In this document: positions 16,619-20,378 of the stretch, piece after piece
How positions within the stretch are numbered: position 1 is the stretch's first letter
Layout of the letters: every line of letters starts with the position of its first letter
Assembly (NCBI GenBank): GCA_001917855.1
Contig: MNEU01000027.1
Span: forward strand, 1 to 36,092
Source of the DNA: Armatimonadetes bacterium 13_1_40CM_64_14
GTDB lineage: Bacteria > Sysuimicrobiota > Sysuimicrobiia > Sysuimicrobiales > Kaftiobacteriaceae
Direction of reading: 5' to 3'
DNA: 36,092 nt
Program-made: the position numbers and the translations under genes
The notes under the pieces: generated by a model
The model's database searches: none
Told to the model about the DNA's origin: nothing
The model's input: only the letters and a program-made list of their open reading frames with translations

Positions 16619-16692
16619 GCGGGGATAGCTCAAAGGTAGAGCTCCGGCCTTCCAAGCCGGGGATGCGGGTTCGATTCCCGTTCCCCGCTCCA
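16619..16692 (+). tRNA. tRNA-Gly (TCC)
   Basis: Acceptor GCGGGGA/TTCCCCGC, anticodon arm CCGGC CTTCCAA GCCGG, T arm GCGGG TTCGATT CCCGT, encoded TCCA. Confidence 0.95.
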
Positions 16693-16700
16693 CGATCGCC

Positions 16701-16850
16701 TCAATGCAGGCGCACGTTCGCGGCGTCGGAACTCACCGAGCGGGTTAGCAGCCGGTTAGCAACCTCGGCGGCGCGCTCCTGGCCCGTCCCGTGCACGTAG
16801 GTCCAGCGCCTCAAGACAATCGATGCGGAGAATTGGCACTGCGGCTGGAA
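16701..16850 (-). pseudogene. Probable C-terminal remnant of a tyrosine recombinase/integrase
   Basis: Minus translation ending 9 nt from the tRNA-Gly CCA: ...VLRRWTYVHGTGQERAAEVANRLLTRSVSSD; resembles the T..Y.HV.......AAE....LL tail of phage-type integrases; no catalytic core visible. Confidence 0.45.
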
Positions 16851-16929
16851 GTAACCGCAGATCGCCATCAGCGTGTTTGAGAAGTGTCCTGCTGGGTTTC
16901 CTGCCGCCGCCGGAGTCCCTTGCATCCGG

Positions 16930-17099
16930 CAGCGGGCCGCGCAGTACCACTGCGACCGTCGGCGGGGGAGGAACCACTCGCCGCAACCCCTGCAAAGACG
17001 CCGTCTCGGCAGATGGCGCCTCCGCGATGCAATCTGACGGCACCGAGCGGAGGACAACGGATGGATCACCTGCGTGACGTTGACTTCATTGAAAAGCAT
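16930..17099 (-). other. Zinc-finger-like ORF segment (fused in frame to the integrase-like tail)
   Basis: RLCRGCGEWFLPRRRSQWYCAARCRMQ has the C..CG..F.PRR..Q.YC...CR pattern of small zinc ribbons. Confidence 0.4.
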
Positions 17100-17286
17100 G
17101 GCGGTTTCCGCGAATGCCCAAGCGTCAGAAGACTTGAGCTTAACGACAGGTCAGGTAGCGCAGGTCCTTAGAATCGCGCAATCCCCTGCGTCGCGGTGGG
17201 AAAACGGCACACGAAGGATTCACCCGGCGTTTGAACGACTGATCGGGCTCACCCTCTCGCGCAGTGCGGCCGGACCACACACCTAG
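17098..17286 (+). CDS. Small helix-turn-helix (XRE-like) protein
   Basis: MAVSANAQASEDLSLTTGQVAQVLRIAQSPASRWENGTRRIHPAFERLIGLTLSRSAAGPHT*; SRWENGTRRIHPAFERLI is typical of XRE-like HTH. Confidence 0.5.
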   Translation: MAVSANAQASEDLSLTTGQVAQVLRIAQSPASRWENGTRRIHPAFERLIGLTLSRSAAGPHT

Positions 17287-17403
17287 CGACTTCAGAGGAG
17301 GTGGTGGAGATGGGCGAGGGCGTCAAAAAGATCGTTAGAAAGCCAACGCTCACGCCGCCAGAACCCGCGTCAGACGTGGGGATTGAGAGCCAAAGTGAGC
17401 GTT

Positions 17404-17449
17404 GGCCCGCGGAGCCGTAGGTCGTGGGTTCAAATCCTGCCAGGCGCGC
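17404..17449 (+). repeat. tRNA 3'-half-like fragment (T arm + acceptor strand), no recognisable 5' half
   Basis: GGAGCCGTAGGTCGTGGGTTCAAATCCTGCCAGGCGCG; TTCAAAT T loop with GTGGG/CCTGC stem and CAGGCGC acceptor-like strand. Confidence 0.5.
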
Positions 17450-17979
17450 GAGTCCTGCAGATTCTCATGGTCTCCCACCGTCTGCGCATCCGTTGCTCAT
17501 CGAGGAGGGCTGCCGTTTACGGTGAATGACTTCTCGTAAAAATTGGTCGTCTGGTCATGCGGTTAGAAACCCGGCGACTCGGAGACGATGCACCACGTTG
17601 CTAAGTTGTCAGGGACCAGAGGCCGGACCAGAATCCAGTCCCCCGGCTACGTTGCTCTATCGCTCGGACGGCAATCACTTTAAGGTGATCGTCGGGCTCT
17701 GAAGGTGAACATTCCCTAAACCCCCCTATATACCTCCTCTCAATTCAGCGTAAATATACCTCGCCATAGAGGTAAGCAACAGGCAGCAGGAGACTTAGGC
17801 TAGTAGGAGGAATACATCTGGGGCCATGCTGGATTCCCCCGGCGTCGCGTCTTCCGCTCCCGTAGGTTGGGACTCCTCGTCAAAATTCTTCAAGTGTTCT
17901 GGTCAATAATCGTCCCTCACTGAAAGGGCGTTGCCCTCCGCTTCGCCGATGCGGGAGTTGACAGAAGCGGTATCTCCCT

Positions 17980-18011
17980 GGCCTACCTCTCCGCCGGCCT
18001 ACCTCTCCGCC
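17980..18011. repeat. Perfect tandem duplication of GGCCTACCTCTCCGCC (2 x 16 bp)
   Basis: Direct reading of sequence. Confidence 0.95.
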
Positions 18012-18018
18012 GCGCAGG

Positions 18019-19065
18019 TCACGACGAACGCGCAACAGCCGCGCCGGTCGCCGCCCGCTTCTCCAGGTAGTCCACGAAGACCGGCACCGGGTCGAAGCCC
18101 ACGACCCGGGGCGCGTCGGTGACGAAGTTCGAGAGTACGTTGATGTCGTAGAAGTAAAGGCGCCCGTCCCGCTCGCTGATCAGGTACTCGATCCCGCCGA
18201 CATCAATGCGGGCGGCCTGCGCGATGCGCAGCACCTGGGCGACGATCTCCTGTGGCGGCGTGTACCCCTCCACACGCAGGTTCGTGCGGGGCAGGTCCAC
18301 CGGGCAGTAATCCAGGGCCGATGACGATGCCGCGGGTTCCTTCTCGGGCTGTGGCAGCAAAACCACGGGCGGGCTCGCGGCGACCGTCCCATTGGGCTGG
18401 CAGATGTCGGCCGGGCACAGGTTGAACCCTGCCGACGGGTTCGGGAAGACCCTGATCGCGTAGAGGAACCGACCGTCCAGCACCTCGACGCGGACGATCG
18501 AGCCGCGAACCGGCGCGTGATATTCTTGGACGAGCGCGGTGTGATCGATCCCGAGGTCGAGGACCCTGCCGGCGACGGCCGCTTCGAGATCCTTCAGCGC
18601 GTCAAAGCGCTGAATCTTCGCGCCGCTGCCCCCAATGTTCGGCTTCACCAGCAGCGGAAACGCCAGGTGGCGAGCGGCATCGACGGCCTGCGCGGGCGCG
18701 TTGATCACGCGCGTGCACGGATGCGGCATGCCCAGCCGGCTGAGCAGGCTGATCTGTGCGGTCTTGGAGAGTTCAAGGCCGAAGGCGTCAGCGCCGTTCA
18801 CAACAGGCACGCCCATGATCTCCAAGTGCCGCAGGTAGGCCAATGAGGCAAAGATCGCGTGCCCGTGCCCCCGCACGTAGGCCGACGGGCTCATCCGGTT
18901 CAGCACCAGCGCGTACGACGCGGTACCGTCGGCCGGATTGAAGTTCAGGGATGTCGCCAGGATGCGGTCGTACTCGATGCCCCGGCGATCGAGTTCCGCA
19001 AACAGCGGGCCGAACCATTCAGGATGTTCGTATAGCACTCCAAGGTGTGGCGATTCGGATGACAT
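18019..19065 (-). CDS. ATP-grasp family ligase (RimK/D-Ala-D-Ala ligase-like), substrate unknown
   Basis: From ATG 19065: MSSESPHLGVLYEHPEWFGPLFAELDRRGIEYDRI...; FPLLVKPNIGGSGAKIQRFD, ALVQEYHAP, VGGIEYLISERDGRLYFYDINVLSNF. Confidence 0.78.
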   Translation of the reverse strand: MSSESPHLGVLYEHPEWFGPLFAELDRRGIEYDRILATSLNFNPADGTASYALVLNRMSPSAYVRGHGHAIFASLAYLRHLEIMGVPVVNGADAFGLELSKTAQISLLSRLGMPHPCTRVINAPAQAVDAARHLAFPLLVKPNIGGSGAKIQRFDALKDLEAAVAGRVLDLGIDHTALVQEYHAPVRGSIVRVEVLDGRFLYAIRVFPNPSAGFNLCPADICQPNGTVAASPPVVLLPQPEKEPAASSSALDYCPVDLPRTNLRVEGYTPPQEIVAQVLRIAQAARIDVGGIEYLISERDGRLYFYDINVLSNFVTDAPRVVGFDPVPVFVDYLEKRAATGAAVARSS

Positions 19066-19361
19066 GCATCGGACCCCCATTTCCGGCACCCTGATAGTCG
19101 CCGCAGGCAAAGCCTCAGCGGCCCGAACGGGCACCGCAGATCTCAATTGTCGGGCGGAGCGGGTGCAGTCTAGACCGGACGGAACGGCGAAGGCACGCGG
19201 GCCTTCGCCCAGGGACAGATGCAGTCTCGGGGACGAGGCAGGAATTCTCTGTGCAGTACTCGATGCGCGTCCATGCGCGTCACTTGCCCCATAGCATACT
19301 ACAAGGGCTCGACCGCCTCAACAACATGTACTGTCAGTAGATGCCGCCCGCTTTGGGCAAC

Positions 19362-19421
19362 GCCAGAGTTCCGGTCTTAACAAAGCCGGCGATGCGGGTG
19401 CGATTCCCGTTGCCCGCTCCA
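19362..19421 (+). repeat. Degenerate tRNA-Gly 3' copy (possible attachment-site scar)
   Basis: AAGCCGGCGATGCGGGTGCGATTCCCGTTGCCCGCTCCA vs tRNA-Gly AAGCCGGGGATGCGGGTTCGATTCCCGTTCCCCGCTCCA (3 mismatches in 39 nt); T loop and anticodon arm broken. Confidence 0.7.
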
Positions 19422-19643
19422 CAGGCTTCACGTCCCTTCCGGTTGCGCATGAGGATCAGCGCCTTCCGTAGATCGCCTCGAATCTCCGCAGTGCTAACAC
19501 GGGTTCCAAATCGCTGCGTGTTACCGTCCTGCTGATCAAATGACCTATGCCAGACTGAGCACCGGCCCCACAACTGACAGGTCTGGTTTCCGGTGTAAGA
19601 TGAAGACGGACGCTTCGTCGCTCACGGAGAGGTACTCAGAGCC

Positions 19644-20378
19644 ATGCCGGCGCCACTGAGCCAGGCCACCCAGGATTACCTGAAGGCGGTCTTCACGCTG
19701 GCCCAAAGCGAGCATCCGGTCACCACGACGCGACTCGCCGAGCACCTCGGCGTCGCGCCCGCATCCGTCACGAATATGATGAAGCGGCTCGCCCGAATCC
19801 GACTGGTGCGTCACACCCCCTACCACGGCGTTGAGCTCACCGATCACGGGGAGAGAGTAGCTCTCGAGGTGATCCGGCACCACCGGCTACTGGAGTTGTA
19901 CCTCAGCCGGGCGCTGGGGATGCGCTTGGACCGCGTGCACGGCGAAGCCGACCGGCTGGAGCACGTTATCTCTGAGGAACTGGAAGAGCAGATTGCTTCA
20001 GCGCTCGGGCAGCCGGATCTGGATCCGCACGGCGACCCCATCCCAACGAAAGCGGGAGGCATCATCGTAAAGCCCGGGCGGGTCTTGACGGATGCCCGAC
20101 CAGGCGGGCGTGTGCGCGTCGTCCGTGTCAGTGACCGCAGCGAAAAGATCGTCCGAGAGTTGACCGCGGCCGGTTTGCTGCCGGGTGTCCTGGCAGAGGT
20201 CGTGGCCGTGGGCCCGCATCGGGTGGATGTACGCATCGAGGGCCGGACTCATCGCATCAGCGCGGCTCTGGCCGCCGCCATCTATGTGACCGACCTCGAG
20301 GCGGGGGACCGCCGAGCGCGCCGGCAGCCACTGGACCCCGGGGGGTCCTTGCAGACTCGCCGGGTCCCGGACGCGTAG
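19644..20378 (+). CDS. DtxR/MntR-family metal-dependent transcriptional regulator with FeoA-like C-terminal domain
   Basis: LSQATQDYLKAVFTLAQSEHPVTTTRLAEHLGVAPASVTNMMKRLA...GVELTDHGERVALEVIRHHRLLELYL...DRLEHVISEELEEQI. Confidence 0.9.
   Translation: MPAPLSQATQDYLKAVFTLAQSEHPVTTTRLAEHLGVAPASVTNMMKRLARIRLVRHTPYHGVELTDHGERVALEVIRHHRLLELYLSRALGMRLDRVHGEADRLEHVISEELEEQIASALGQPDLDPHGDPIPTKAGGIIVKPGRVLTDARPGGRVRVVRVSDRSEKIVRELTAAGLLPGVLAEVVAVGPHRVDVRIEGRTHRISAALAAAIYVTDLEAGDRRARRQPLDPGGSLQTRRVPDA

Follow-up and report, generated by a model that had tools for sequence, protein, structure and literature searches.

Probable scar of a decayed integrative element at tRNA-Gly(TCC) in an uncultured bacterium

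Introduction

Does a degenerate tRNA 3′ end lying downstream of an intact copy of the same gene mark the place where an integrative element once resided, or is it what remains of a second tRNA gene? Partial tRNA genes are left behind by integrating elements (PMC9897764), and islands of this type are defined in Islander by a regenerated tRNA gene and a displaced fragment (PMC4383910). We addressed this question for a locus within a 36,092-nt stretch of DNA (the whole of which is termed the window), where an earlier note had proposed the scar of an integrative element bounded by tRNA-Gly and a degenerate copy of its 3′ end. That proposal is supported by the repeat pair, by the stub of an integrase, by a sister genus in which the site is empty in some species and occupied in another, and by functional relatives of the integrase located at tRNA ends. 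We conclude with high confidence that the block is a decayed integrative element at tRNA-Gly(TCC).

Results

An intact tRNA-Gly gene and a degenerate 3′ copy

An intact tRNA-Gly(TCC) gene is present at 16619-16692 on the plus strand (ARAGORN; Rfam, 72.8 bits) and a degenerate 3′ half of the same gene lies downstream in the same orientation, at about 19366-19421, with 36 of the last 39 nt matching, as the earlier note had described. Local alignment of this copy runs from the D-loop to the CCA with one 2-nt insertion and ends at 19421. The copy fits this gene best by far, scoring 83 with tRNA-Gly(TCC) versus 36-39 with other Gly tRNAs and 32 with tRNA-Arg, so the better fit to another tRNA-Gly that would have undermined the proposal was not found among the tRNAs compared. 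A 26-nt tRNA 3′-end pattern allowing up to 3 mismatches recovered both places in the contig, and the reversed control gave zero matches in 61 genomes. The intact gene would be the target, with its 3′ end rebuilt by the element (attL side), and the degenerate copy the displaced end of the original gene (attR side).

Alternatively, the 19.4-kb copy might be a decayed second, tandem tRNA-Gly, in which case the block would be no more than decayed intergenic DNA that happens to hold an unrelated gene. Visual inspection showed a GGGCA close to where the 5′ acceptor strand would be expected, which could pair with the TGCCC of the copy (the intact gene has GGGGA/TCCCC), but this possible compensatory pair was unsupported by alignment and no repeat of the tRNA-Gly 5′ half could be aligned near the copy (alignment versus shuffles, P=0.68). 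Moreover, none of ten relatives has a second tRNA-Gly at this locus. On the choice between an att site and a decayed second gene, which had been left for checking, these results favour the att site.

The same locus in relatives

Across the family, genomes G002, G003, G006, G007 and G008 share the gene order VIT1, tRNA-Tyr, tRNA-Gly. Both flanks of the block are collinear with G002, with VIT1 on one side and folD onwards on the other, and the contig is therefore not a chimera. Empty sites were found in the sister genus g4, where in G003 and G006 the tRNA-Gly runs straight into '...CCACAGAATTTCACTT', such that CACAGAATTTCACTT and a small gene, presumably DUF2630-like, directly follow the tRNA. 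Another g4 genome, G008, carries an intact tRNA-Gly, an insert of ~0.8 kb and then GTTCCCCGCTCCACAGAAATTCACTT, in which a displaced tRNA end runs into the flank seen in the empty species. The search for an empty tRNA-Gly locus in relatives thus returned both states, empty in G003 and G006 and independently occupied in G008. The insert itself (G008:C136, locus L080, 1555-2382) may, by eye, encode a small membrane protein opposite to the tRNA strand, and no integrase remnant was found in it.

Window positions 19409-19494 are 75.6% identical over 86 nt to the junction and flank of G008, indicating that the original flank directly adjoins the 19.4-kb copy. This flank, at 19422-19494 (+) and starting CACAGGCTTCACG..., was identified by homology to that of G008 and was next to tRNA-Gly before the insertion. 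Taken with the empty sites of G003 and G006, the homology indicates that the tRNA-Gly 3′ end has acted as an att site within the family. A tandem tRNA-Gly would leave the displaced copy in G008, beside the empty sites of its congeners, unexplained. A DNA search of 16693-18020 across the order returned essentially tRNA-Arg matches alone and no sister element.

An integrase stub facing the tRNA

A minus-strand ORF of 132 aa (16701-17099) ends at 16701, 8 nt past the CCA of tRNA-Gly. Within it, 16728-16802 (-) matched an order-specific profile of tyrosine-recombinase C-termini with 24.1 bits (E 1.4e-6), the profile having been built from ten integrase C-termini of the order, with the window left out; on 20 Markov-simulated 36-kb windows this profile scored at most 10.0 bits. 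The matching peptide, YVHGT-GQERAAEVANRLLTRS, is 62% identical to the C-terminus of the G018 integrase, which abuts a tRNA-Met/tmRNA end, and carries close to the CCA the YxH..QE.AA..AN.LL block of the order-specific integrase clade. Against 43 genomes of the order, the 132-aa protein gave weak matches (E 0.007-0.7) on tyrosine recombinase C-termini. The minus-strand integrase C-terminus that had been suspected just past the CCA is therefore real. The comparison with Pfam that had been proposed did not reveal it: neither Pfam nor PHROG returned an integrase match, whether the whole ORF or just its C-terminal piece was scanned. A viral-contig scan with the ORF found no relative. As a candidate further piece of integrase, LGHSRKPPCFSM at 17087-17122 (-) was not significant and was rejected.

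The stub faces the CCA end of tRNA-Gly, and this C-terminal remnant of about 25 codons is all that remains of the integrase inside the att pair, with no functional gene. A stub in this orientation is also left unexplained by a tandem tRNA-Gly, which we regard as very improbable.

Working integrases and complete elements in the order

Homologues of an intact 402-aa integrase from G035 occur in 19 of the 43 genomes of the order. In the closest of these, the stop codon faces the CCA of an opposite-strand tRNA at a distance of about 25-70 nt, the tRNA being of Phe, Ala, Pro, Thr or Met type (for the Met-type gene ARAGORN also offers a tmRNA call). Most of the intact integrases that supplied the C-terminal profile face a tRNA CCA end in this way. 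Two complete elements were delimited, one of 5.0 kb at tRNA-Pro (G015:C308) and one of 5.5 kb at tRNA-Ala (G027:C35), each with an intact tRNA and a displaced 3′ copy. Their att cores are about 50 nt and extend from near tRNA position 22-27 to the CCA, as does the copy in the window. The order yielded no complete tRNA-Gly-TCC element carrying this integrase, and a contig database scan with the G035 integrase matched its own record alone.

The related locus of G030 has a gene for a TrwC relaxase 1.9 kb away from its integrase, and some members of this group of elements may therefore be mobilizable; the far end of the G030 element was looked for and not found. Separately, a tRNA-Gly(CCC) in G033 (G033:C81:18000-24000, locus L200, 1615-4204) is followed 2.5 kb downstream by a displaced 3′ copy without mismatches, with no integrase recognised in between, and could be another compact island or scar.

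A tRNA-Arg fragment within the block

The further tRNA 3′ half that the earlier note had seen in the block proved to derive from tRNA-Arg(GCG). It occupies 17397-17449 (+), starts at tRNA position 22, lacks the CCA and is 89% identical over 53 nt to intact tRNA-Arg(GCG) genes of G002 and others; intact homologues across the order have the anticodon GCG according to ARAGORN. A partner tRNA-Arg(GCG) for the fragment was not found in G000, a 77%-complete MAG assembly. The fragment is a misfit with a single simple insertion, and it may be att-like, originating within the cargo or as a trace of recombination with a tRNA-Arg element.

One extension of the scar interpretation, which would refine rather than replace it, is that the block holds the fused remains of at least two elements, one tRNA-Gly- and one tRNA-Arg-related. 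The Arg half starts at the same tRNA position as the att cores described above, and some elements of the order (G035, G019) use tRNA-Arg. Tandem arrays with a decayed integrase also occur there. In such an array in G027 (G027:C35:14000-33000, locus L233, 3818-10000), another integrase of this family, itself decayed, lies behind the tRNA-Ala element and its displaced copy. A foreign gene beyond the att pair of the window (see below) points the same way. However, a profile search next to the Arg fragment detected no further remnant of an integrase, and tandem insertions at one tRNA would repeat a Gly end and not an Arg end, so that we consider a composite origin possible but rather unlikely. A different thought is that this integrase clade switches tRNA targets readily (members with 50-60% identity use Phe, Ala, Pro, Thr, Met and Gly) and that an Arg half in a Gly scar is the fossil of such a switch, through two att specificities or recombined elements; this is speculative, and we give it little weight.

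An intact ATP-grasp gene and its neighbours

The block contains one intact ATP-grasp gene, as had been noted, encoding a RimK/LysX-like ligase at 18019-19065 on the minus strand (RimK E 2.7e-5), with an ORF start possibly extending out to 19146. Phylogenetic analysis nested this gene within family f5 (support 0.996), making it foreign to family f1, whereas VIT1 and the HD-GYP gene of the window have their closest relatives in f1, in genus g4. None of the relatives examined carries the ATP-grasp gene at this locus; its presence there without the repeat, which would have counted against an element, was accordingly not observed. Upstream of the gene, a noncoding leader at 19170-19240 is conserved in G020 and G023 (about 78% over 57-69 nt); it matched no Rfam family, and Rfam searches at low threshold yielded nothing but tRNA-related matches and chance. 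Just outside the att pair, at 19644-20378 (+), is a DtxR/MntR-type regulator with a FeoA domain, which is also xenologous and falls in family f5 (support 0.993). As this gene too is foreign, the locus must have been shaped by several events.

We consider the ATP-grasp gene a likely cargo of the element, being intact within the att pair while all else there has decayed, and having its nearest homologues in another family. It might instead have arrived independently after the decay, for example by homologous recombination or transposition, and never have been cargo. In G020, G023 and G038 the gene is present at other places, where no neighbouring element was recognised, and the DtxR gene demonstrates that imports have taken place here without the element. 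Independent arrival is thus a serious alternative, although the less probable one.

Small ORFs and the class of the element

The zinc finger and XRE-like helix-turn-helix that had been claimed for the block were weakly supported, both scoring under Pfam cut-offs. A possible CxxC...YC..CR fragment at 16922-17012 (-), in the same ORF as the stub, resembles NinG (Pfam E 4e-4; PHROG 171 E 1e-4) and is tentatively a zinc finger. A 70-aa ORF at 17074-17286 (+) resembles HTH_31 (E 0.0035) and a CII-like regulator of PHROG (E 0.002), and might be the remnant of a regulator or excisionase. No capsid, portal or terminase genes indicative of a prophage were detected in 16693-19421, using the ORF list and Pfam/PHROG scans of candidate ORFs, and the block contains no relaxase or conjugation genes indicative of an ICE or IME.

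Discussion

The history that we propose would begin with a small integrative element encoding a tyrosine recombinase, whose attP was a copy of the tRNA-Gly 3′ end. Recombination of attP with the 3′ end of the chromosomal tRNA-Gly(TCC) would have rebuilt a working tRNA-Gly (16619-16692) from the copy of the element, leaving the original 3′ end beyond the insert (19366-19421), where, free of selection, it could decay. The integrase gene would have ended up beside this tRNA, its stop codon turned towards the CCA. Later, nearly all of the integrase would have been lost, along with most other DNA of the element; we infer the order of these decay steps. The element would no longer be mobile because so little of its integrase and of the remainder survives, and excision and integration would be dead in a recombinase deprived of nearly all its catalytic domain.

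The comparison with relatives confirms a decayed island to which generic integrase profiles are blind, and brings to light small elements of one family that target tRNA genes in a bacterial order without cultured members. Comparing empty with occupied relatives is also shown to give a reliable reading of degenerate tRNA ends. The general understanding of such elements is unchanged by this scar.

Among known systems, the window shares with tRNA islands of the Islander type (PMC4383910) the regenerated tRNA, the displaced 3′ fragment in the same orientation and an integrase beside the tRNA. In contrast to that type, its integrase is a C-terminal stub that would fail the Islander integrase filter, and its displaced end is degenerate. 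The scar in G008 has the same target gene, an insert followed by a displaced 3′ end, a homologous flank and similar post-CCA bases (CGAT..), but its insert is shorter, has no recognisable integrase remnant and is without the ATP-grasp gene, and may represent an event separate from that of the window. The G015 and G027 elements resemble the window in their homologous integrase, facing geometry and ~50-nt att core from near the anticodon stem to the CCA, and differ in their size of 5.0-5.5 kb, intact integrase, other tRNA and other cargo. The scar in the window is thus a decayed case of a known kind of island, an ordinary event in a little-studied and uncultured group.
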